From positions 62,001 to 126,000 of the forward strand of contig DUCM01000014.1 of the NCBI GenBank assembly GCA_012959785.1: a stretch of 64,000 bases of DNA. The letters are read 5' to 3'. The DNA is from Planctomycetota bacterium. Lineage in GTDB: Bacteria; Planctomycetota; UBA1135; GCA-002686595. Shown here piece by piece: positions 9,233-34,989 of the stretch. The notes under the pieces are model-generated. The model searched no databases and was not told where the DNA came from. It was given only the letters and a program-made list of their open reading frames with translations. How positions within the stretch are numbered: position 1 is the stretch's first letter; the number at the start of each line of letters is the position of its first letter. A program made the translations under genes and the position numbers.

Positions 9233-10639
9233 TCAGGCGACGAGGCCAGCGCTCTTCCAGATTTTCAGTTTGTTGCTCAGCGTGCGGGCCGTTAGCCCAA
9301 GCCGGCGGGCGGCCTCGGTCTTGTTCCCGCCCGTACAGGCGAGGGTGGCCAAGATCGCCATGCGTTCAATGTCTGCCATCTGCAAGTTGGCCAGCCGGTC
9401 GCCAAGCTCCTGCTCTTCGTCGAAATCTCCATCGAGTTCGCCCTCAGGAGTCGTGGTGGTTGCGGTGAAAGACTTGGGTCCAAACGAGAGGTCCGAGCAT
9501 TTGACCGTGTCGCCCTGCAATAGAATCACAGCTCGTTGAATGACATTTTCGAGCTCGCGCACATTGCCGGGCCAGCGCCAACTCATCAGTTGTTGCTGTG
9601 CGGAAGCGTCGAGCTTGGGTGTTGCTAGACCATTGCGTTGGGCGTAAAGTGCGAGGAAGTGCTCGGCCAGAGGCATGACGTCCTCGGTTCGGTCGCGCAG
9701 GGGCGGCATGTGGATCGGCAGAACATGCAGGCGGTAGTAGAGGTCCTCGCGAAAACTGCCCTTGGCGATTTCTTCGGGCAGGTCTCGGTTTGTCGTGGCG
9801 ATCACACGCACATCGACGCGAAGCGTGGAGTTGCCGCCCACTCGTTCAAACTCCTCTTCTTCGAGTACGCGCAAGAGCTTGGCCTGCAGGGCGGGTGAGA
9901 TCTCACCCAACTCGTCGAGCAGGAGCGAACCGCCGTCTGCCAGTTCAAAACGACCAGGACGAGTGCGGTGAGCGCCGGTGAAGGCCCCCCGCTCATGGCC
10001 AAAGAGTTCGGACTCCAGAAGGTTTTCTGAGAGCGCAGCGCAGTTGACCCGAATAAAGGGCCCGCCAGCTCGCGGCGAATTTTGGTGAATGTACTGAGCC
10101 ACGCGCTCCTTGCCGGTTCCGCTTTCACCTGTGATGAGCACGGTGCCATTGGAGTTTGCGATGCGCCCAGACGAACGCAAGAGCTCTAGTGTTAGGGGAC
10201 TCTTGGCGATGAACATGGGTGCTTCCCGGCCCACCAGTTCCGAGCGCAGGTATTCGTTTTCCAGCTCGAGGCGTTGAGTGTGACCGATGCGCCGAAAGAC
10301 GAGTTCGATGGTGTCGGGCGAGACGGGCTTGAGCAGAAAATCCTCGGCGCCGAGGCGTAGTGCTTCCACTGCGGCTTCGACGGAGCCGTGTGCGGTCACT
10401 ATCACCGTCGGCAAACCAGGGAACTCTTGCTGCAAGGCCTCAATCAACTGCACGCCATCCATGTCGGGCATGCGCAGGTCGGTGAGCACCAGGTCCGGTT
10501 GGATCTTGCGCACACATTCGAGAGCTTCGGAAGCGCTGGAAACACCTTGCGGCTGGTAGCCGAGAGAAGAAACGGCTTCGATCAAGAACTCCCGCGAAAG
10601 CGGGTCATCATCGACAATTAGGATGCGTTGAATCGACAT
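9233..10639 (-). CDS. NtrC-type sigma-54 flagellar response regulator (FlbD/FleR-like)
   Basis: This is a sigma-54 enhancer-binding protein, probably controlling flagellar promoters. From ATG at 10639 it has 468 residues: a receiver domain with acidic pair in ILIVDDD and phosphoacceptor Asp54; an AAA+ domain with Walker A GESGTGKE, the sigma-54 loop GAFTGA and Walker B LLLDELGE; and a Fis-type helix-turn-helix (NKTEAARRLGLTARTLSNKL). An upstream in-frame extension to 11008 overlaps the kinase gene by several hundred bases and is not credible. It follows its probable cognate kinase (22-base overlap) and leads into flgB. Confidence 0.93.
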   Translation of the reverse strand: MSIQRILIVDDDPLSREFLIEAVSSLGYQPQGVSSASEALECVRKIQPDLVLTDLRMPDMDGVQLIEALQQEFPGLPTVIVTAHGSVEAAVEALRLGAEDFLLKPVSPDTIELVFRRIGHTQRLELENEYLRSELVGREAPMFIAKSPLTLELLRSSGRIANSNGTVLITGESGTGKERVAQYIHQNSPRAGGPFIRVNCAALSENLLESELFGHERGAFTGAHRTRPGRFELADGGSLLLDELGEISPALQAKLLRVLEEEEFERVGGNSTLRVDVRVIATTNRDLPEEIAKGSFREDLYYRLHVLPIHMPPLRDRTEDVMPLAEHFLALYAQRNGLATPKLDASAQQQLMSWRWPGNVRELENVIQRAVILLQGDTVKCSDLSFGPKSFTATTTTPEGELDGDFDEEQELGDRLANLQMADIERMAILATLACTGGNKTEAARRLGLTARTLSNKLKIWKSAGLVA

Positions 10640-11832
10640 GATCGTGTGGTCAGCGGACTTCTGGTAGAGGGGATCGAGAACTGGAACGAGGCTCCGCCGA
10701 GGGGCGATGCATCGCACGAAATGTGAAGGGCTCCGCCGTGCAGTGCAGCGATAGAGTGCACCAGGGAGAGGCCCAAACCCGTGCCTGAGGCGCGAGTCGT
10801 GAAGAACGGGTCGGCCAGGCGCGAAGCGAGGCTTACGGGCACGCCAGGGCCTGCGTCTTGCACTTCGAAGGTGTGTGATCCGTCGGATTGGGCGGCTACG
10901 ATGTGGAGCGCACCGCCTTGCGGCTGAACCTCCATGGCATTCGAAATCAGGTTGCGCAGAGCTTGGCGTAGCTTTATGTGGTCGCAGCGCAGAGCTCCAG
11001 CTGAACAATCCTGCGTGAATTGCCAGTCTCTTGGGTCGCGCTGTCCGGGTGTGCGTTGCAACGCGGCGGCCAAGGCCCCGTCCACAATGTCCTGGGCTTC
11101 AATGGTCTCGAGCCTCAGTTTTTCCGGTTGCGAGAACGAGAGCAGGCTAGAGATGATCGCTTCGATTTCCACCACTCCGCTCAAGATCAGCGAGGACCAG
11201 CGATGATCGCGAGTGTCGGGCTGCATGGATTTCTTGAAGAGTTCCGCGAAACCCTTGACGGCGTTCAGGGGGTTTCTAATCTCGTGGGCGATGCCGGCGG
11301 CCATATTTCCCAGGGCGGCCATCTTGTCCATTTGGCGCACGCGCTCCTCAAGCTGCACCATCTCGGTCTGGTCATCGAAAATCTCGACACGACCAGCCTG
11401 GTCGTCATCCGTGTTGACGATTTTGGCGCTACGGCGCGTCAGAATCCGGGTTTGCCCGTCGGCCGAGGAGAGGCTGAAGGGCTCTCCGGGCTCTTCGGGG
11501 CCGGGCAGACAATCCTGAGCAGCCATTCCCACGAGCTCACCTTTCCCGGTCGCTAAAATGTGGGCCAGGGTTTCATTAACCCGCAGCACCGTTCCCTCCG
11601 CGTCTAGAACGGCAACACCTACCGGCAGGGCCTGCAAGATTGCTTCGACCTCGGCAACCTGGTTTTCCAGGTCGGTATTGGCGCGGCAGAGCTCTTGCTC
11701 CATGCGCGTGGCGTGGCCACGCAACTTTTCATAGCTCTCAAGCAAGTCGCCAGAGATGTTGGCCAGGGAACCCATCATCTGCTCGAGATCCGAGTTCGAA
11801 GGAGCCTGGGAGGAGGGCTGGTCAACGCTCAC
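10618..11832 (-). CDS. NtrB/FleS-like soluble histidine kinase
   Basis: This kinase probably phosphorylates the adjacent NtrC-type regulator. The 404-residue protein has no membrane segment, a coiled coil at about 30-65, a PAS domain at about 65-170 (LQALPVGVAVLDAEGTVLRV), an intact H-box GIAHEIRNPLNAVKGFAELF and a HATPase with N-box NLISNAMEVQP, G1 DAGPGVP and G2 TGLGLSLV. The cytosolic PAS organisation matches FleS/NtrB kinases that sense flagellar assembly state rather than external ligands. Confidence 0.92.
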   Translation of the reverse strand: MSVDQPSSQAPSNSDLEQMMGSLANISGDLLESYEKLRGHATRMEQELCRANTDLENQVAEVEAILQALPVGVAVLDAEGTVLRVNETLAHILATGKGELVGMAAQDCLPGPEEPGEPFSLSSADGQTRILTRRSAKIVNTDDDQAGRVEIFDDQTEMVQLEERVRQMDKMAALGNMAAGIAHEIRNPLNAVKGFAELFKKSMQPDTRDHRWSSLILSGVVEIEAIISSLLSFSQPEKLRLETIEAQDIVDGALAAALQRTPGQRDPRDWQFTQDCSAGALRCDHIKLRQALRNLISNAMEVQPQGGALHIVAAQSDGSHTFEVQDAGPGVPVSLASRLADPFFTTRASGTGLGLSLVHSIAALHGGALHISCDASPLGGASFQFSIPSTRSPLTTRSCRFNAS

Positions 11833-12629
11833 TCCGCGCCTCCCTGGGTCGTACGCACATCCTTGATCTTGCGATCAAAGTCCACTAGCCACTGCAAAAA
11901 TTCGGCGTCGCGCCGGGCGCGGTCTACTTGAGTTGCCGAGGATTGGGCGTTGTTCAAGACCGCGTTGTAAGCGGTCAGAGCTTCGCGGGTGTTTCCTTGG
12001 CGCTCAAAGCAACGGCCCATCCAGTAATCCGCAGCCGGACTACCAACGCGCGTGCGCAGGAGGGTCAATGCCTCTCCGTATCGGCCGGCCCGATAGTAGG
12101 CGCGGCCCTGAAGTACGGCATCGACGGTAAAGCCAGGCTCTTCGAAGACCAGGCGGTCATCGGTGCTGCGCTTTACCTGAGTCGCAGTGCCGGGCACGGG
12201 AGGCCAGATAGCCCCCAAATCGTTGCGAGCTTCTTCGCTGAGCCCCGTTGTTGGCGCTTTGATGGCGTCTGCGTTGATGCTGGAGAGGTTGGCTGTGGGG
12301 TCTTCGCGCAGGTGGGGCAAAAGGGGTGATGCGTCGATGCGTTCGACCTGTGCTCCAAGTTTGCCAATCTCATGACGCAACTGGTCGAGCAGCTCATCGC
12401 GCTCGCGCTCGGCACCCAAAGGTGCCTCGGTGGCGGCCATGGCTAGCCGGACAGCCGCGTAGTCCCTGACCGCAAGTTTTTCCTCAATGGCCGAGAGCTG
12501 CTCGAGGCCTTGCTCGGTGGCCAGTATCGATTTCTCGATAGCGCGGACACCCGTCAACTCTTGTTTGATTGAGGGAAGAATCAGCGCTCCGGCGAGGCCG
12601 AAGTTGATCAAGTTGGTGAATTTGAGCAT
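11829..12629 (-). CDS. membrane-anchored coiled-coil/TPR protein of unknown function
   Basis: I do not recognise a named family. The 266-residue product has a hydrophobic N-terminus (about residues 8-22, INFGLAGALILPSI), a charged coiled coil at about 35-100, a Pro-rich linker, and a C-terminal TPR-like unit at about 165-250 (GRAYYRAGRYGEALTLLRTR, then YWMGRCFERQGNTREALTAY). Its start overlaps the stop of the preceding gene by one base and its stop overlaps the kinase start by 4, so it is tightly co-expressed with the flagellar regulators. The TPR suggests a protein-protein scaffold. Confidence 0.8.
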   Translation of the reverse strand: MLKFTNLINFGLAGALILPSIKQELTGVRAIEKSILATEQGLEQLSAIEEKLAVRDYAAVRLAMAATEAPLGAERERDELLDQLRHEIGKLGAQVERIDASPLLPHLREDPTANLSSINADAIKAPTTGLSEEARNDLGAIWPPVPGTATQVKRSTDDRLVFEEPGFTVDAVLQGRAYYRAGRYGEALTLLRTRVGSPAADYWMGRCFERQGNTREALTAYNAVLNNAQSSATQVDRARRDAEFLQWLVDFDRKIKDVRTTQGGAE

Positions 12630-14098
12630 CAGAGTTTTCCTCCATAGGCTTCTGCGGCTTCTTCAAAGCGCGCGTGTCGTTCGAGGATTTCTGCTGCCAG
12701 CAAGTAGACTCTTGAGCGGTTTTCGACGGACTCCAGAGAGAGTGCGAGATTGCGCAGAAATTCGATGCTGGCGTCCGCGCTCTCTTGTTGTTCCAGGAGC
12801 GGCGCATAGGCCATGCCGTAGCGCATGCGCTCGGCTGTGCTGAGGGTCCAAATCTCTTGCTGGAGGGCGCGGAAGACCCTCAGGGCTTGGTCGCTTGATC
12901 CTGATGCAAGCAATTGTTCGCCCCGGTCTAGGCGGATCGAAGGTGTGCTGTTTTCGAAGGATTTGGCGTCGAGGCCCAAGCGCGAGCGCGCCTCGGCGCT
13001 GTAGGGTTCGATCACATCCCCAAGGCCCTCTTTATCTGCGTGCTTCTGCAGGAACAGAACGGCCAACTCTTCACCTTCCACCGAGAGCGCGAGCTGAGCC
13101 GCGCGGGCCAGCGCCTTGCGCTTGGTTGTGATGGGCTGTGTTCGGCTAAAGTGCAGCCATGCGAGAGAGCCTTCGATGGGCTCTCCGGCCAACACCAGGC
13201 CTCGCGCTCGCAGGTCCATACCTTCGAATTCGCTGATGATGCCCTGGCCCAAATTCAAGGCTCTGTCCAAGAAGCGCAAGCCCCGTTCGTGTTGACCCAA
13301 GTCGAGCAGGGCACGGGCCATCAAGAGCCAGCGCTGGGCGCGGTCGTTGTCGTCAACAGGGGGAATGACCTGTTCCAGCCCTTGCAACATGAAACGCGCG
13401 CGGCGAGGCTCGCCGCGCATCAAGATGCAGCGCGCCAACTCTCGTCGCGCCTCGGCCAGAATCGGCACGAACCTCTGCGCCGTGCTTTCGTCGAGCTCGA
13501 CATTGGCGACCACAGCAAAGTGTGGCAATGCCTGGGTCCAGAGCTCCAGTTCAACAAGCAGTCTGCCCACTGCCATGTGTGACTCCTGCGCGGAATCGTC
13601 ATCGGGAAAGTCCTCGATCAAGAGCTCGTAGTGACGCACAGCCTTCTGCAACTGGCCGCCGTCGAGGGCCAACTCCGCCAGGTCCTGGCGGGCACGGACG
13701 GCTCCCGGTCCGGTGGGGAAGCGGCGTAGGGCCGCCAGGTAGCGCACCTCGGCAGCGTTGCGAGCGGCCTCTCCATCAGGGAAGGGGGGCAACTCGCCGC
13801 GCACATCAATGCTTTGGAGGGAAACCGTCGCAGTCAATCCAGCCGACCCCAGGATGTATTGCACTGCTTGGTTCAGGGGTCGGCCATTGAGGTGGATATC
13901 CACCCGCGGTGATTGGTCGACATCCTCGAAGCCAGTGACTTGGCGGTCGGCCTTGCGTCCCAACTGGGCCATCAAGAGGTGGGCTTGGACATCCCTGGCC
14001 TGAACATTGCAAAGGGCCTCACCATCCTCTTGCCAAACGGAGATCGTGATGGAGGATTGAGCTAGAGGGAAGAGGGCTAATAGGCTGAGGGCAATCAT
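12629..14098 (-). CDS. secreted STN-like plus TPR-repeat protein
   Basis: No named flagellar family fits. The 489-residue protein begins with a signal peptide (MIALSLLALFPLAQSS). An about 80-residue domain follows that resembles the short N-terminal domain of secretins and TonB receptors (QARDVQAHLLMAQLGRKAD, then VDIHLNGRPLNQAVQYILGS). The remainder, from about residue 108, is TPR-like helices (ARQDLAELALDGGQLQKAVR onward). This layout implies a periplasmic scaffold that could dock on an outer-membrane ring. It is embedded between two other unnamed genes with 1- and 4-base overlaps. Confidence 0.78.
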   Translation of the reverse strand: MIALSLLALFPLAQSSITISVWQEDGEALCNVQARDVQAHLLMAQLGRKADRQVTGFEDVDQSPRVDIHLNGRPLNQAVQYILGSAGLTATVSLQSIDVRGELPPFPDGEAARNAAEVRYLAALRRFPTGPGAVRARQDLAELALDGGQLQKAVRHYELLIEDFPDDDSAQESHMAVGRLLVELELWTQALPHFAVVANVELDESTAQRFVPILAEARRELARCILMRGEPRRARFMLQGLEQVIPPVDDNDRAQRWLLMARALLDLGQHERGLRFLDRALNLGQGIISEFEGMDLRARGLVLAGEPIEGSLAWLHFSRTQPITTKRKALARAAQLALSVEGEELAVLFLQKHADKEGLGDVIEPYSAEARSRLGLDAKSFENSTPSIRLDRGEQLLASGSSDQALRVFRALQQEIWTLSTAERMRYGMAYAPLLEQQESADASIEFLRNLALSLESVENRSRVYLLAAEILERHARFEEAAEAYGGKL

Positions 14099-15072
14099 CG
14101 TGCTTTTTCCTCCAGGTGTCGGGCTTCCAGGAGGAAGCTGCGGGCGACGAGTAGTTCCATGCTCTGCAAGGCGACCTCGCGTTCGCTTTGGGGGATGGAC
14201 CCGGCCAGAGCCAGATCGCGAAATAGCATGCGCCGCGCACCAACAAAGTCGGCAGCATCGAGCAGGGACTGTGCCGCCATCAAGGTCACTTCGGAGCGCG
14301 TCTTGGGTTGCGCCGGAGAAACCACTCGCGCCATTCCGCTGCCCGGGAAGGCGCCCGTGCCTGCCGCGCCAGCGAGGCTCATCTCCTTGATTCGGGCTTC
14401 GAGTTGATCGATGCGTTGCTGTTGTGCGTTGCTTTGGCTGCGACCAGCCTGTGAGTTTGCAGCGACATCGCTGCGCAGGCCATCAACGGAGTTGCTGAAG
14501 CTCGAAGTGAAGTTCCCGAAAAGGGCCAGGGAGCCGAGCATGAACACGATCAGCACGCCCACCAGAGCCCATTGGACTGCAGGTGTGGCGCCAAGGCCGA
14601 GGCGCGCGGCGGCTCGGGATCCATCAGGTGCCTGCGCGAAGGGCGTTTGGGCTGGGTGGGCTTGGGGCGCCTGGGGGGATCGACGGGCTGCTTGTTCTTG
14701 TTGCTCGCGGCGCAGTTGATCTTGATGGTGATCTTGGACCATCTCGCCCAGGTCATCATCCAGGAGATCGTTGACCGCTTGCGTGGCGTTCTCGATGTCG
14801 CCTTCCAGGCCGGCGGCATGCGGGTCTTGTTCCGGAGCGTTACCTTCCAGGGCTGGAAAACCAAAGAGGTCAAGATCGAGATCGGGATCGATGCCGGTGT
14901 AACCACCGCGGGTCACTGGCAGCGGCTCTGGCTCTGGCTCTGGCGCGGCAGTCGGCTGTGCTTTTGCAGGCGAGGCCGCTTCCAGGGCGGGGAAGTCGAA
15001 GAGGTCCTCGTCCAGCCCCGGAGCATCAGTGGCGGCCTTTAGATCGCCGGAGGAAAAATCATCCATGGACAT
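14095..15072 (-). CDS. single-pass membrane protein with duplicated DLFxFPALE motif
   Basis: No family is recognised. The 325-residue product has an acidic, proline-rich, probably cytosolic N-terminal half that carries the same short motif twice: DEDLFDFPALE at residues 21-31 and DLDLFGFPALE at 66-76. A third acidic helix (NDLLDDDLGEMVQ) follows. One membrane helix lies at about 166-187 (AVQWALVGVLIVFMLGSLAL). Beyond it are a coiled coil (about 205-235) and a TPR-like helical end (LLDAADFVGARRMLFRDLAL). The duplicated motif in disordered sequence looks like a docking peptide for an unknown cytosolic partner. Confidence 0.8.
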   Translation of the reverse strand: MSMDDFSSGDLKAATDAPGLDEDLFDFPALEAASPAKAQPTAAPEPEPEPLPVTRGGYTGIDPDLDLDLFGFPALEGNAPEQDPHAAGLEGDIENATQAVNDLLDDDLGEMVQDHHQDQLRREQQEQAARRSPQAPQAHPAQTPFAQAPDGSRAAARLGLGATPAVQWALVGVLIVFMLGSLALFGNFTSSFSNSVDGLRSDVAANSQAGRSQSNAQQQRIDQLEARIKEMSLAGAAGTGAFPGSGMARVVSPAQPKTRSEVTLMAAQSLLDAADFVGARRMLFRDLALAGSIPQSEREVALQSMELLVARSFLLEARHLEEKAR

Positions 15073-15078
15073 TTAGCG

Positions 15079-16026
15079 TCAACTCCGCAAGGCCTGGGCT
15101 GCGATTCGGGAGGGATCAGGGCCACACAACAGGCGTCCGATGACGACTGCCTGGGCGGGCGAGACCTGGAAGATGCTCTCGACTCCATCGACTTCCAGGG
15201 TCCGCAGCAGTTGCTCGGACGTGTCCGGTGTAAAGAAGTCCAGCTCGGAGAGATCGATGTTGTCGTCCGTGTCGTAGTCGACGAGGCAGGCGCCAAAACG
15301 CAGGATGATGGTGGCTCCTTGCCCCACGCAACTCTCGAGCTCAATGCGCTCCGCCAGAGCAGCGGCGCGGGCTAGGCCGTTGTGGCGCGTGCTGGCGAGG
15401 TGCTCACCGGCGACTTTCGCGCTGTCGAAACCGATTCCGTCATCGTGTACGCGCACCACCATTTCTCGTTCGTCCACGGTGGCGTCGATCCATATTTCGC
15501 CCATGCGGCAGGGGTAGGCGTGCTCCACAGAATTTTGAATGAGTTCGGCCACAGCGGTAGCCATGCGTGCGCGGCAGGTTGGCCCTACGCGCTGACGCAA
15601 GGCGAAGGCCAAGAGGTCCCGGGGCGCGATCTGTTGGCTCTCGCGGTTTGCGGTGTAGCTCGCATGGAAGTGTGCTTCTCTCACTGCGCCGGCCTGTTCC
15701 ACAGCTTGAACAAGTTCCTTCAAGCGGAACGGTTTGGCGAGGAACTCTGCGGCTCCCTTGTGAAAGGCCTCGCGGCAGCCTTCCAGGGTCGGATCCGAGG
15801 CGATGAACACGGTGTGGGGTTGGCCGCCTTGCAGTCGGTACTCGCTCAGGAGATCCAGGCCGTCAGGGCCGCACAGTTGCCATTCGGCGACCAACACCTC
15901 GGGCAAGGGGTGGACCAGGGCTTGTTCTGCCGAGTTCACGATCACCACCGCATGGCCCCTCGTTTGGAGGGCGCTGGCCATGGCTTCGGCGATCACGAGT
16001 TCGCTTTCGACAATCAGGATGTCCAT
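15079..16026 (-). CDS. pseudo-receiver fused to an RsbW-type HATPase
   Basis: From ATG at 16026 the protein has 315 residues. Residues 1-115 are a receiver fold, but the phosphoacceptor Asp is replaced by Glu48 (EVLVAEWQLCGPDGLDLL) and the acidic pair is ESE, while Lys98 (FLAKPF) is kept. Residues about 130-245 are an anti-sigma-kinase/HATPase domain with N-box AELIQNSVEHAY and G1 box HDDGIGF. About 70 residues of unknown fold follow. Glu at the acceptor site suggests a permanently on-like or non-phosphorylated state. An ATG at 16050 is also in frame but overlaps the upstream gene by 23 bases. Confidence 0.8.
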   Translation of the reverse strand: MDILIVESELVIAEAMASALQTRGHAVVIVNSAEQALVHPLPEVLVAEWQLCGPDGLDLLSEYRLQGGQPHTVFIASDPTLEGCREAFHKGAAEFLAKPFRLKELVQAVEQAGAVREAHFHASYTANRESQQIAPRDLLAFALRQRVGPTCRARMATAVAELIQNSVEHAYPCRMGEIWIDATVDEREMVVRVHDDGIGFDSAKVAGEHLASTRHNGLARAAALAERIELESCVGQGATIILRFGACLVDYDTDDNIDLSELDFFTPDTSEQLLRTLEVDGVESIFQVSPAQAVVIGRLLCGPDPSRIAAQALRS

Positions 16027-16027
16027 G

Positions 16028-16720
16028 CTAGCAGCCCCCTTCGGTGTCACGAGGGAGGCGCACTACGATGCGCGTGGATGCCGAGGGCAGGAGGGTCGTT
16101 TCGAGACTGCCGCCCATGCGCGTGATTTCGCGCTCCACAAGGGCCAGGATCAGGTGTTCGTCGTCTGGCGCGAGGGTGCGTTTGGCCTCATCTTCGAAAG
16201 TGTCCAGATTTCCGCGTGGCTGCACGAGCAGGGTGATCTTGAGCCACTCGGCCTGGGCGGAGGCGTGCAGCACGGCTTCGTCGCCCACATCCACTGCGAC
16301 GGACAAGAGTTGAGCCAAGCTGCGCGTAAAGAGAGGGCCATCAACCCGGGTCTGCGCCTGGCCGTCTTCGCAGGCGACGCGAATGACTGCGGCGACGGGG
16401 GCGTCGAGCAATCCATGGGAGCAGCGCGTGAGTTCCTCGAGAGTGCAGGTCAGGTTGTGCAGCGGAAGCGGCACGGCGTAGTCCACCAGGGCTTGGATGC
16501 TGCGGCCGAGGCGTACGATTTGATCCACAGCACCGTTCAGCACTGTCTCGCGAGGGTCCTGGTTCTCGAAGTCTTTGGCGAGGGATTCCATCGAGGCGCG
16601 TAAGACGGCCAGGGGCGTGGCGACGTCGCGACGAATCGTCGCGCGCATGTCGATCGGAGATGCAGAGCCGGTGCCACTTCCCTGGGGGACAGCTTCCGTA
16701 TTGTGGATGTAGGGGTGCAT
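16028..16720 (-). CDS. degenerate histidine kinase-like protein
   Basis: The protein of about 230 residues looks like a histidine kinase core that has lost its catalytic residues. The H-box equivalent reads IRRDVATPLAVLRASMESL, so the phosphoacceptor His is Arg. The HATPase-like second half lacks a recognisable N-box and G boxes but keeps a terminal G2-like strand region (REITRMGGSLETTLLPSAST). I prefer ATG at 16720; a TTG at 16786 extends the frame through a hairpin. It is first in the long minus-strand operon. A role as an inactive scaffold or inhibitor of the neighbouring kinase is inference. Confidence 0.7.
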   Translation of the reverse strand: MHPYIHNTEAVPQGSGTGSASPIDMRATIRRDVATPLAVLRASMESLAKDFENQDPRETVLNGAVDQIVRLGRSIQALVDYAVPLPLHNLTCTLEELTRCSHGLLDAPVAAVIRVACEDGQAQTRVDGPLFTRSLAQLLSVAVDVGDEAVLHASAQAEWLKITLLVQPRGNLDTFEDEAKRTLAPDDEHLILALVEREITRMGGSLETTLLPSASTRIVVRLPRDTEGGC

Positions 16721-16745
16721 GGCGAGGTTTGGCTTCTCCTTCTGG

Positions 16746-16767
16746 GCCACCGACAAAACCCGGTGGC
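16746..16767 (-). promoter_or_regulatory. leader hairpin before the long flagellar operon
   Basis: GCCACCG at 16746-16752 pairs with CGGTGGC at 16761-16767, leaving an 8-base loop. It sits 26 bases before the preferred ATG of the first operon gene and could affect translation or act as an attenuator. Only the symmetry is seen; the role is a guess. Confidence 0.3.
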
Positions 16768-16896
16768 AGCCAAGCCTTTCGGCCAACTCGTTCGATTCCC
16801 CTTAGCTCGCGCTGCCCAGATAGGGCACTTTTTTCCGACTCCCGGGTTCGGGGCATCGTGAGGGCGCGATTTTTTCCAATTCGGGACGCCCGGGGG

Positions 16897-16991: not shown

Positions 16992-18347
16992 CTAGCTCTC
17001 GATACCGTAGGTGCGCAGCTTGTTGTAGAGGGTCGTGCGATTGACCCCCAACATGCGGGCCGTTTCGCTGCGGTTGCCCTCGGCGGCCTTGAGGGCTCGG
17101 CGAATCAGCCCTTCTTCCATGGTCTTCAGGCGATAGTCGTCGCTGGACTGTGGTGCCGTGCTGCCAGAGATCGGGGCGGGGGCATCAAAACCCAGCTGCG
17201 ACGCCCGAATGGGCCCATCGGGCGCGAGCAGGGCAGCTCGCTCCACAACATTGCGCAACTCGCGAATGTTGCCACGCCATTCCCGGGAGCGCAGGGCAGC
17301 CAGGGCGTCTGGCGCGAATCCGGCGTATTCACGGCCAAATTCGCTAGCGAAGCCCTTCAGGAAATGGGCGCTGAGTGCGGCGATGTCCTCCTTGCGCTCG
17401 CGCAGAGGCGGTACCTCGATGGAGAGCACATTGAGCCGGTAGAACAGGTCTTCGCGGAATCTACCCGTTTCCACCATGGCGGCGAGATCGCGGTTGGTGG
17501 AGGCAACGATACGAACATCGGAGCTGCTGTCCTCCGAGGCCCCCACCCGGCGGAAGACCCGTTCTTGCAGGACTCGCAAGAGCTTGGCCTGTAGTTCGGG
17601 GATCAACTCGCCGATTTCGTCGAGGAACAAGGTGCCGCCCTCGGCCGCGGCGAAGAGGCCTTCGTGGCCTTTGGGGCTCGCGCCGCTGAACGCTCCACCG
17701 ACATAGCCGAAGAGCTCCGCTTCGAGCAGATTCTCAGCCAGTGCGGCGCAGTTGAGAGCCACGAAAGGGCCCTGGGCTCGAGCGGAAGCCTCGTGAATGG
17801 CGCGGGCCACCAATTCCTTGCCCGTACCCGATTCACCGGTGACGAGCACCGTGGTGCGCGGCGTCGAGGCGACCTTGCCTAGCTGGTCGTGTACCCGTTC
17901 GATGGCGCGTGATTGCCCCACGATGGGGCCAGAACGCAGACGGGCCACCTCATTGCGCAGTTGGTCGCGTTCGCGGGTCAGGGCCCGCTTGCGCAGAACG
18001 CGCTCAAAGAGATTCTCGATCAAATCACGGTTGATGGGCTTTTCGAGAAAGTCCACGGCGCCGGCTTTCATGGCTTCCACGGCGACATGGATGTCGCCTA
18101 CTCCGGTGACCATCACAACCTGGGGCGAGGAATCCTGGGCCACGAGTTGGGGCAGGATCTCGAGGCCCGTGCCGTCAGGCATCTCGATGTCGAGCAAGAC
18201 CACATCGGGGTGTACGCGCCGCGCGACCTCGAGGGTCTCGCGGCCCGAGCCGGCCTCAAAGGTGCGGTGGCCGAGGGTTTCACAGAGCACCACCAGGCTC
18301 TCGCGAACTCGGCGGTCGTCGTCGGCAACCAGGATGCGGGTGGACAT
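16992..18347 (-). CDS. second NtrC-type sigma-54 response regulator
   Basis: This is another enhancer-binding protein for sigma-54 promoters. From ATG at 18347 it has 451 residues: a receiver with ILVADDD and phosphoacceptor Asp53, an AAA+ domain with GESGTGKE and Walker B LFLDEIGE, and a Fis-type helix-turn-helix near the end (RSETARMLGVNRTTLYNKLR). The sigma-54 contact loop reads GAFSGA instead of GAFTGA, a variant seen in some family members. The longer frame to 18443 adds a Pro/Arg-rich stretch without family features. It stands alone, divergent from the flagellin genes. Confidence 0.92.
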   Translation of the reverse strand: MSTRILVADDDRRVRESLVVLCETLGHRTFEAGSGRETLEVARRVHPDVVLLDIEMPDGTGLEILPQLVAQDSSPQVVMVTGVGDIHVAVEAMKAGAVDFLEKPINRDLIENLFERVLRKRALTRERDQLRNEVARLRSGPIVGQSRAIERVHDQLGKVASTPRTTVLVTGESGTGKELVARAIHEASARAQGPFVALNCAALAENLLEAELFGYVGGAFSGASPKGHEGLFAAAEGGTLFLDEIGELIPELQAKLLRVLQERVFRRVGASEDSSSDVRIVASTNRDLAAMVETGRFREDLFYRLNVLSIEVPPLRERKEDIAALSAHFLKGFASEFGREYAGFAPDALAALRSREWRGNIRELRNVVERAALLAPDGPIRASQLGFDAPAPISGSTAPQSSDDYRLKTMEEGLIRRALKAAEGNRSETARMLGVNRTTLYNKLRTYGIES

Positions 18348-18732
18348 GAAACTCAGATTCGTTGGTTGGTTTGGCGGAAGGCTGCGCGCCGATTCTGCAC
18401 TTCGACAGGGGCCGGGTCGAACCCCAAGGGGGCCCTGCCCCAAGACCTCAAGAATCCCCGGAAACGGGATCGCTGTGGGAAATACAGCCCCGATGGCCTG
18501 TCCTGAGTCCCTTGTGCCCTGGGCAGACAGAAGCAGACATAAGAATAGGTCAACCCGGGGCTCGAAGGCCCCCTCGCCCTGACCGGAGAGGGCGAAAGTC
18601 GGGGAACTGACTCAGGCGGGCGAGGCTCCCTCCGAGAACCCAATCGTCACCCAAGGTGGAACCCCACCGATGGAGACAACCTCAACAAGCGACTTTTACC
18701 TAGAGACCAACCCCCAATTAGGAGCCATAACC
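18348..18732. other. intergenic leader between regulator 2 and flagellin 1
   Basis: This divergent 385-base gap must hold the flagellin promoter. I see an AGGAG ribosome site nine bases before the flagellin ATG. I see no convincing sigma-28 element and only poor sigma-54-like matches (for example GG-GC spaced correctly at 18520-18535 but with a weak -12 box). A hairpin of CGCCCT with AGGGCG occurs near 18573-18594. No other gene is visible. Confidence 0.5.
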
Positions 18733-19557
18733 ATGGGCCTCAGAGTCAATACCAATATTGCGTCCTTGACGGCGCAACGCAATCTCTCGCGGGTCACCAC
18801 CCGCTTGCAAGGCAACTTTTCCCGCCTGTCTTCAGGCCTGCGAATTGCCACGGCGGCTGACGATGCTGCGGGTCTTGCCATCTCCGAACGCATGCGTTCG
18901 CAGATTCGTTCCCTCGGAGCTGCGACCCGCAACGCCCAGGACGGCATCTCGCTGGTCCAGACAGCGGAGGGCGCCCTGAATGAAGTCAGCAACATCCTAT
19001 CCAGGATGCGCGAGCTGGCCGTGCAGGCGTCCAACGGCACCCTGAGCACCGCCGACCACACCACGATCAACACCGAGGTCGTTGCCCTGCAGTCGGAAAT
19101 CGACCGCATCGCTGTCACGGCAGAATTCAACGGCATTCCGCTGCTCAACTCTGCGACCACCGTGAACATCCAAGTCGGCATCAACACCGGTGAGGTCATC
19201 GGTGTCAACACGGCTGATATTCAGACAGTGGCTCTGGGTATCGACGCAGCCAATGTGAACACTACGGATGTTACCGCTGCCTCCGCGTCTCTCGCCGCAC
19301 TCGACACAGCCATCGGTTCGATCAACTCGATTCGAGGCAACATGGGTGCTTCTCAGAACCGCTTGCAAAGTGCTGTCTCTTCAATCATGAACAGCAAGGA
19401 GAACCTCTCCGCTGCGGAAAGCCGCATCCGGGATGTCGATGTCGCCTTCGAGACGGCCGACCTCACGAGAAACTCGATTCTTCAGCAGGCTGCTACCTCG
19501 GTCCTCCAGCAGGCCAACACGCAACCTCAAATCGCACTGTCCTTGCTCCAAGGATAA
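18733..19557 (+). CDS. fliC: flagellin 1
   Basis: Flagellin is the filament subunit exported by the flagellar system. From ATG at 18733 (AGGAG nine bases upstream) the product has 274 residues. It has the D0/D1 N-terminal signature (MGLRVNTNIASLTAQRNLSR, then LSSGLRIATAADDAAGLAIS) and the C-terminal helix (ESRIRDVDVAFETADLTRNS, ending in LQG). There is no large variable D2/D3 insert, so the filament subunit is minimal. An in-frame upstream ATG at 18670 adds 21 residues that spoil the conserved start and is rejected. It is similar along its length to the next gene. Confidence 0.95.
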   Translation: MGLRVNTNIASLTAQRNLSRVTTRLQGNFSRLSSGLRIATAADDAAGLAISERMRSQIRSLGAATRNAQDGISLVQTAEGALNEVSNILSRMRELAVQASNGTLSTADHTTINTEVVALQSEIDRIAVTAEFNGIPLLNSATTVNIQVGINTGEVIGVNTADIQTVALGIDAANVNTTDVTAASASLAALDTAIGSINSIRGNMGASQNRLQSAVSSIMNSKENLSAAESRIRDVDVAFETADLTRNSILQQAATSVLQQANTQPQIALSLLQG

Positions 19558-31765: not shown

Positions 31766-31843
31766 AGCAACCCATGAACCAGCGCAAGAGACAGCCTTTG
31801 TTCCAGGAAAGCGCCGCACCGAGCGGTGCCCGGGGAGGTGCGT

Positions 31844-32572
31844 GTGGCTGAGTTCGTCGACTACGCAGCGGGTGCGGAGAACGACCGCGACAAGTTGATT
31901 CTGGAGCACATCCCGCTCCTGCGTCACATCGTAGGACGCATGTGCTTCGATGTTCCCGGCGGCATGGACCGTGACGACCTCTATGGCTTCGGCATGTTGG
32001 GTCTGATCGCGGCCGCGGATTCGTGGGAAGCAGCCCGCGGTCTGAAATTCTCGACCTACGCTTACACCAAAATCCGGGGCGCCATTCTCGATGAATTGCG
32101 GCGCATGGACTTCTTGCCCCGTGGACGCAGAGAAAATGTGCGCGATCTGGACAAGACCGTGCGTGCTATGGAGCAGAAGAACGGTACACCGCCCGCGCCC
32201 GAGGACATCGCAACAGAGATGGGCATCAGCGTGGATGAGGTGGACCAGATCTTCCTGCAAGCTAAATCCAGCTCCGAAGCCTCCCTCGATGAGGGCACCA
32301 TCGGTCCCCTGGCGGATCTGCTTTCCGACCCGCATTGCGAAGAGCCGATCGGCAGCCTTGAGCGCGAGGAAATGACCGAGTTGCTCGCTCGTGTCGTCGG
32401 CAATCTTCCCGAACAAGAGCAATCCGTCATCAACCTGTACTACGCCGAGGAACTCCTGCTGAAGGAGATTGGCGAGGTGCTCGGCGTGACCGAGTCCCGA
32501 GTAAGTCAAATCCACAGCCGGGCCTTGTATCGCCTGAACAAAGCTCTGGCACCGCTGATCGGACAGTCCTGA
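31844..32572 (+). CDS. fliA: FliA flagellar sigma-28 factor
   Basis: FliA directs RNA polymerase to late flagellar promoters. The 242-residue protein has region 2 (LEHIPLLRHIVGRMCFDVPG, then RDDLYGFGMLGLIAAADSWE and FSTYAYTKIRGAILDELRR), region 3 and region 4 (ELLLKEIGEVLGVTESRVSQ IHSRAL). I choose GTG at 31844 because GGGGAGG ends six bases upstream; an in-frame GTG at 31826 is possible. It is the last recognisable flagellar gene of the operon; flgM lies downstream on the opposite strand. Confidence 0.95.
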   Translation: MAEFVDYAAGAENDRDKLILEHIPLLRHIVGRMCFDVPGGMDRDDLYGFGMLGLIAAADSWEAARGLKFSTYAYTKIRGAILDELRRMDFLPRGRRENVRDLDKTVRAMEQKNGTPPAPEDIATEMGISVDEVDQIFLQAKSSSEASLDEGTIGPLADLLSDPHCEEPIGSLEREEMTELLARVVGNLPEQEQSVINLYYAEELLLKEIGEVLGVTESRVSQIHSRALYRLNKALAPLIGQS

Positions 32573-34602: not shown

Positions 34603-34989
34603 CTACTCGCCGCCGAGCAAGCTGGCCGCGCTGGCTTGGGCGCGCAGAGGTGTATTCAGTGTGCCACTCTTGTGGGCTCGGGTGAGCTCCTCGATGCGCG
34701 CCTCGCGGGCTTCGGCGGACTCGGAAGCTCCACGGGGGCCGGGCAACTCGCCTGCCGCCAGACGGCGGCTCTCGGAGGAGAGCTCGACGCTCTCGCGAGA
34801 GAGGTTGCCGCGCTGGGCTTCTGTCTGGCGCTGGGCTGTTTGGGTCCGGGTCTCGCGCACGCGCTCCTGGCTGGCGCTGGAGGTCTTCTCAATCCCCTCG
34901 CGGTTGGCGCGCGTCAGATCGAGATCTAGGCTCTTGTCTTTGGGGTCGTTCGGCTTGGGGCCGGACGGGTGGTTGTTTCCGATTTGCAT
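34603..34989 (-). CDS. flgM: FlgM-like anti-sigma-28 factor
   Basis: FlgM binds and holds FliA until the hook is complete, then is exported. The 128-residue product begins MQIGNNHPSG, is largely disordered and basic, and ends in the FlgM C-terminal signature: SVELSSESRRLA, then REARIEELTRAHKSGTLNTP and LRAQASAASLLGG, as in the LS..Ar and V..Lk..I..G.Y motifs of the family. The middle is longer than usual. It is convergent with the fliA operon and preceded by a sigma-28-like promoter, the classic feedback arrangement. Confidence 0.82.
   Translation of the reverse strand: MQIGNNHPSGPKPNDPKDKSLDLDLTRANREGIEKTSSASQERVRETRTQTAQRQTEAQRGNLSRESVELSSESRRLAAGELPGPRGASESAEAREARIEELTRAHKSGTLNTPLRAQASAASLLGGE

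Follow-up and report, generated by a model that had tools for sequence, protein, structure and literature searches.

The window analyzed here, a stretch of 64,000 nucleotides, is part of contig C14 of a 3.67 Mb genome. We focus on the gene at positions 15079 to 16026 on the minus strand, which we call RECHAT (our own label). It is a genuine open reading frame, with an ATG at 16026 and a stop at 15079, and on the basis of Pfam matches and alignments its 315-amino-acid product comprises a pseudo-receiver, an ATPase domain of the RsbW/SpoIIAB type, and a C-terminal extension. The protein has three named relatives, all from MAGs; two carry the label Planctomycetota and the third just 'bacterium'.

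The pseudo-receiver spans residues 3-110 (15697 to 16020, minus strand) and matches Pfam Response_reg with 41 bits (cut-off 30.2). The first 116 residues of an AlphaFold model of RECHAT matched solved receivers in VIA-align with Z ~20, the best row aligning 114 residues with an rmsd of 1.1; the rows cover mainly residues 1-116 of the model. The acceptor position of this fold is Glu48 (codon GAA, 15883 to 15885, minus strand). In the model, Glu48 ends strand beta3 (44-48), and its alignment column holds Asp in every fully canonical relative. An earlier interpretation made from the sequence alone (the sequence-only reading) had placed the acceptor at residue 48 and had named an alignment as the check; the alignment agrees. 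That reading was also correct about the acidic pair, which it gave as ESE (E7-S8, followed by E9), about the conserved Lys98, which the alignment confirms, and about the joining of the receiver to an RsbW-type ATPase with an intact N-box. It did not include the Thr/Ser switch position, which is Ala76 in RECHAT (residue 95 is Phe). Two of the five standard receiver residues, E7 and K98, are present. RECHAT therefore has the properties of a pseudo-receiver, a receiver fold without the phosphoacceptor Asp.

The ATPase domain, residues 136-243 (15298 to 15621, minus strand), matches Pfam HATPase_c_2 with 47.5 bits (cut-off 27.4), and its closest solved domains by profile are those of SpoIIAB and RsbW (1l0o, 1til, 6m36). 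It has the N-box Glu and Asn (E161, N165) and the DxGxG of the G1 box (D195, G197, G199) expected of this type, along with G217 and G237. The C-terminal extension of ~70 residues follows (245-315; 15082 to 15294, minus strand). It has the pattern DLSELDFFTP ... SPAxAVxxGRLL, and a search with an extension profile indicates that it is family-specific. The sequence-only reading covered neither this extension nor the decayed partner kinase and flagellar operon described below.

RECHAT is in a flagellar regulatory gene cluster

RECHAT is located in a run of minus-strand genes that is divergent from the flagellin genes, one of which is at 18670 to 19557 on the plus strand. The first gene of the run, NtrC1 (16992 to 18353), encodes a sigma-54 activator with receiver, AAA+, and Fis domains. 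It is followed by pHK (16028 to 16786), RECHAT, orf14095 (14095 to 15072; a single sub-threshold Pfam match), the TPR protein genes TPRa (12629 to 14098) and TPRb (11829 to 12629), HK2, an ordinary PAS-HisKA-HATPase_c histidine kinase (10618 to 11832), NtrC2, a second receiver-AAA+-Fis sigma-54 activator (9233 to 10645), and then basal-body genes. These assignments are from Pfam, together with NCBIfam for NtrC1, NtrC2, and orf14095; gene labels such as FlgB and FliH are ones we presume from the sequence. Of 27 stretches from the family, 23 have TPRa after RECHAT and 22 contain flagellins. HK2, NtrC2, and FlgB-like matches occur in two outgroup stretches as well. A literature search on receiver, anti-sigma, HATPase, flagellar, sigma-54, and FliA topics in Planctomycetes returned nothing on this locus.

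The gene for FliA (sigma-28), a candidate target of RECHAT, is at 31829 to 32572 on the plus strand (TIGR02479, 225.9 bits, cut-off 189.6; Pfam sigma regions 2, 3, and 4). A small FlgM-like protein is encoded at 34603 to 34989 on the minus strand; its Pfam FlgM match (19.1 bits, E 0.0016) is below the cut-off of 25, and it shares a motif with the FlgM matches of relatives. It lies ~2 kb from FliA, and the relatives' FlgM matches are at a similar distance. Six of 46 genomes gave an FlgM match, two of them without and four with RECHAT, and we rejected the idea that the presence of FlgM is correlated with loss of RECHAT, as these numbers show no pattern.

NtrC1 itself is altered in some relatives. 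Both the Walker A motif and GAFTGA are missing from the NtrC1 adjoining the flagellins in 6 of 19 readable copies (L041, L045, L051, L053, L054, and L123), and the Fis-type helix-turn-helix is kept. The motifs were assessed by pattern only, and a readable NtrC1 beside a flagellin was available in 19 of 39 stretches. It is possible that these copies are pseudo-activators in the same operon.

The ATPase core and the C-terminal extension are highly conserved

We aligned 60 copies of RECHAT, all from one Planctomycetota family; no count includes L113, a fragment of 77 residues located at the end of its contig. The ATPase residues are nearly invariant: D195 and G237 are present in all 60 copies, and E161, N165, G197, and G199 in 59 each. 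Conservation of the extension is similar, with D263 and R298 in all 60 copies and P267 in 57.

The extension of the window protein matched no Pfam family, and those of other members gave scattered single weak matches. An extension profile matched 7 of 294 genomes from across the phylum, and since all seven are in the window's own family, the extension is a lineage-specific addition. Most of the extension is missing from two outgroup proteins (L027 and L029), which belong to a different family of the same order and end in LWS. The same three residues end 21 of the 60 family proteins (e.g., L004, L006, and L014) and could be a short docking motif. The extension formed three helices in the full-length AlphaFold model (4 sequences, mean pLDDT 77) and was modelled poorly alone (mean pLDDT 51). 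A relationship of the extension to FlgM found no support: the hhalign probability was 0.1 against an FlgM profile of 3 sequences only, and FlgM was not among the Pfam matches of 28 RECHAT members.

Conservation of the catalytic N-box Glu in 59 of the 60 copies is what would be expected if RECHAT were a partner-switching serine kinase for a STAS anti-anti-sigma protein, acting as HsbR does on HsbA or RsbW on RsbV. The genome encodes possible components of such a system on other contigs, including STAS genes, one of which (on C17) has a PP2C gene nearby, and, on C15, another RsbW-like gene (L069). However, searches of this genome found STAS matches only on C17 and C10 and none on C14, there was no PP2C match on C14, Pfam detected no PP2C domain in RECHAT, and, as a kinase for the STAS proteins, the separate RsbW (L069) would serve just as well. 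We consider it unlikely that RECHAT is such a kinase. One of the two STAS proteins (L065, encoded on C17, 270 amino acids) has an extra C-terminal half with no Pfam match; its gene is near the SpoIIE-type PP2C gene.

RECHAT is absent from some lineages and constrained where present

Using a profile of the ATPase and extension, we found RECHAT in 61 of the 81 genomes of the window's family and in 35 of its 42 genera. One divergent copy (L118, genome G306) was missed in this family-wide search at 1e-15 and was found with a full-length profile. Neither search detected RECHAT in 19 of the 81 genomes. Among them are genera in which the flagellar run persists (g5, g25, g35, and g19), and so RECHAT is dispensable; for several of the remaining genomes the assembly is incomplete.

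Such losses raise the question of whether NtrC1, pHK, and RECHAT form an obsolete regulator that is simply decaying and has no current role. That several lineages have lost RECHAT or pHK completely, that 4 of the 60 RECHAT copies have no receiver, and that some NtrC1 copies are without Walker A and GAFTGA would all fit. In contrast, dN/dS was well below 1 for the receiver, ATPase, and extension in all 22 pairs with a value (receiver, 0.05-0.28; extension, 0.03-0.18); these are same-genus pairs with an ATPase pN of up to 0.2, the pairs are not independent, and 2 of the 22 have no usable dS for the extension. Together with the near-invariance of residues in the ATPase and extension, these values make plain decay quite unlikely. 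Mean pairwise identity over genus representatives was 0.29 for the receiver and 0.38 for both the ATPase and the extension.

Purifying selection extends to receivers that have lost the acceptor. Receiver dN/dS was 0.06-0.27 in 13 within-genus pairs without Asp48, compared to 0.05-0.28 in 8 pairs with Asp48. Because the values are low also in pairs without Asp48, the receiver fold is still maintained, and not rotting. We infer that the pseudo-receiver has a structural or contact role that does not involve its phosphorylation.

The phosphorylation site of the receiver has been lost repeatedly

The 56 copies with a receiver have ten different residues at the acceptor position: D in 27, E in 13, A and G in three each, R, N, P, and S in two each, and C and T in one each. 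All five key receiver residues are intact in 11 of the 56 copies, which come from 7 genera. In a tree from which the receiver columns and the copies L111 and L112 were excluded, the minimum number of changes is 15 between Asp and non-Asp, 8 between Glu and non-Glu, and 9 between intact and broken sites. The sister genus of the window's (g255) has kept Asp48 and has a broken acidic pair (EN or GE), and one genus (g3) has both a Glu copy and a fully canonical copy.

The sequence-only reading had proposed that Glu48, as a mimic of phospho-Asp, locks the receiver in an on-like state, which would leave the ATPase constitutively in the state set by an active receiver. The presence of Glu at the acceptor together with Lys98 is consistent with this, as is the frequency of Glu among the members without Asp (13 of 29, in 7 of the 18 genera with a non-Asp member) and its retention in 7 of the 9 members of genus g62. 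A D56E substitution is reported to make LvrB constitutively active (PMC13269768). Several findings argue against the proposal. Seven of the 13 Glu copies are from a single genus, and the share of Glu among non-Asp members is not far above the 26% reported for Asp-less receivers, in which Glu is the commonest substitution by chance (PMC4395418). Glu also turns over, with at least eight changes on the tree, and its neighbors there have R, G, A, P, or N. Finally, a Glu that works as a phospho-Asp mimic would be expected to keep its Lys and Thr/Ser partners. Of the 27 Asp copies, 18 have Lys98, compared to 3 of the 13 Glu copies (the other 10 have lost it) and 1 of the 16 others; for Thr/Ser the numbers are 15 of 27, 2 of 13 (11 have another residue, as does the window protein with Ala76), and 7 of 16. 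The data therefore do not support Glu as a working mimic. The repeated turnover of Glu and the loss of Lys and Thr/Ser led us to discard a selected phosphomimic as the main reading, and we regard a receiver locked on by Glu48 as improbable.

The partner kinase has decayed in parallel

The gene immediately upstream of RECHAT, separated from it by 1 base, encodes pHK, a degenerate histidine kinase on the basis of Pfam and alignments (its start may be the ATG at 16720). The position of the phospho-accepting His is occupied by Arg (RDVATPL), and the ATP-binding motifs have been lost. In Pfam, the HisKA match of 21 bits is below the cut-off of 26.9, and there was no HATPase match. Among 43 family copies of pHK, the His position is R in 29, Q in three, H in three, E and G in two each, and L, D, and K in one each; the remaining copy, the partial row L048, has a gap in this column and is included in the 40 of 43 counted as without His. 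Some pHKs (L043, L046, L053-L056, and L112) keep an N-box (e.g., IENALEA) and GLGL although the His is gone, indicating that ATP binding and phospho-acceptance were lost separately.

The three pHKs that have kept the His (L053, L056, and L112) adjoin broken receivers. No pair in the family combines a His with an intact receiver, and both outgroup pairs (L058 and L059) have the His and a fully canonical receiver. Either partner can be lost without the other: pHK is absent while RECHAT stays in, e.g., L034, L038, and L040, and the reverse is found in L114-L116 and L120. Contact between pHK and RECHAT thus cannot be essential everywhere.

That the RECHAT ATPase serves as the catalytic domain of a split histidine kinase, acting on the DHp of pHK, might be suggested by the adjoining genes and by the DHp-like segment and lack of a recognizable ATPase domain in the window's pHK, but it is extremely improbable given that the RECHAT ATPase is of the RsbW/SpoIIAB type, and we rejected it because of the loss of the pHK His.

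RECHAT has lost its acceptor, its second acidic residue, and its Thr/Ser, the neighboring kinase has Arg in place of His, and the ATPase motifs are nearly invariant over 60 relatives. Given this combination, it is very unlikely that RECHAT is controlled by phosphorylation, a view that is well supported. To this extent the proposal in the sequence-only reading that the ATPase, and not phosphorylation, is the regulated part holds; the on-like state locked by Glu that accompanied it does not. Other kinases or small donors could still phosphorylate the fully intact receivers of 7 genera.

A proposed phosphate-independent switch for an anti-sigma-like ATPase

Our preferred interpretation, to which we give an even chance, is that a former two-component pair in a flagellar regulatory operon has become a protein switch that controls an anti-sigma-like ATPase independently of phosphate. 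RECHAT would descend from a response regulator with an RsbW/SpoIIAB-like ATPase as its output, once phosphorylated by the kinase encoded beside it. Within the window's family, the sequences show that the His-Asp relay has been taken apart repeatedly and on both sides, and that the ATPase and the C-terminal extension, a new acquisition, have stayed under strong constraint. Judging from its motifs, the RECHAT ATPase probably binds ATP. In the ATP-bound form, the ATPase and extension may bind and hold a flagellar regulator, most plausibly sigma-28 FliA or its controllers. RsbW and SpoIIAB hold sigma factors, and since FliA is encoded in the cluster, it is our first guess as the target. The pseudo-receiver and the degenerate kinase would gate the ATPase by protein contact. 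Against such a switch, several lineages without RECHAT keep the flagellar run. A more specific version seems possible but doubtful to us: a checkpoint of one Planctomycetota family, in which a pseudokinase and a pseudo-receiver gate, without phosphate, an anti-sigma-like ATPase that carries a new extension for binding a sigma factor or regulator.

RECHAT is of wider interest because a kinase-receiver pair has been dismantled repeatedly and in parallel, while the associated anti-sigma-like ATPase stayed constant. The family includes canonical receivers, receivers with Asp and a broken metal site, receivers with Glu, Arg, or Gly, and proteins with no receiver. With its kinase partners, outgroups, and constant output domain, this series offers a natural test of what a receiver does once phosphate is irrelevant; a 2025 review (PMC12632262) calls the control of pseudo-receivers a mystery. 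If our interpretation is correct, the recurrent losses within one orthologous family would show the stepwise change of a two-component pair into a phosphate-free switch, and RECHAT would indicate that Planctomycetota regulate their flagella at a further, so far unstudied level.

Comparison with known systems

Proteins with a receiver and an RsbW-like domain (REC-RsbW) have been functionally described only from 2025 on, with TciR (PMC12826045) and LvrC (PMC13269768). TciR of Vogesella indigofera is a REC-RsbW response regulator (J Bacteriol 2025, PMC12826045). Of the 100 proteins counted in that report as having this architecture, 13 are from Planctomycetes; the report also states that the organism encoding TciR is without RsbV. 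Like RECHAT, TciR has an N-terminal receiver joined to an RsbW-like domain. The cognate kinase TciK is expected to phosphorylate TciR, whereas the acceptor and Thr/Ser of RECHAT and the His of its kinase are gone, and RECHAT has in addition the C-terminal extension and the flagellar locus.

The closest whole chain to RECHAT is LvrC of Leptospira (PDB 9QIH), also a receiver with an RsbW-like domain (profile, 5.5e-19; Foldseek, 7.8e-14). Its receiver is canonical and is phosphorylated at D53 by LvrB (Nat Commun 2026, PMC13269768), in contrast to the Glu48 receiver of RECHAT, and the accessible part of that report mentions no C-terminal extension. RECHAT thus has the domain order of the TciR/LvrC type, a receiver followed by an RsbW-like domain, without a phosphorylatable receiver (E48, S8, and A76), which 11 of 56 relatives do have, and without an adjacent kinase that has a phospho-accepting His (Arg in pHK).

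HsbR/CrsR has a receiver and an RsbW-like kinase/anti-sigma domain and is linked via HsbA and FlgM to FliA and swimming (PMC6482189). It also has a PP2C domain, located between its receiver and kinase domains, and a STAS partner, and neither was found in the RECHAT protein or on its contig. SpoIIAB and RsbW share with RECHAT an ATPase with the N-box Glu and Asn and the G1 box; that of RECHAT is fused to a pseudo-receiver and a C-terminal extension.

RECHAT resembles the aspartate-less receivers described previously in having the receiver fold with other residues at the acceptor, second acidic, and Thr/Ser positions; they are reported typically to have lost the second acidic residue (PMC4395418, PMC12632262), and a change of Asp to Glu alone is reported often not to activate a receiver (PMC4395418). 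RECHAT differs from other pseudo-receivers in that one orthologous family, at one operon position, contains all stages from a canonical receiver to none, plus its kinase. The REC-RsbW architecture itself is already known from TciR and LvrC, and RECHAT is a variant of it.
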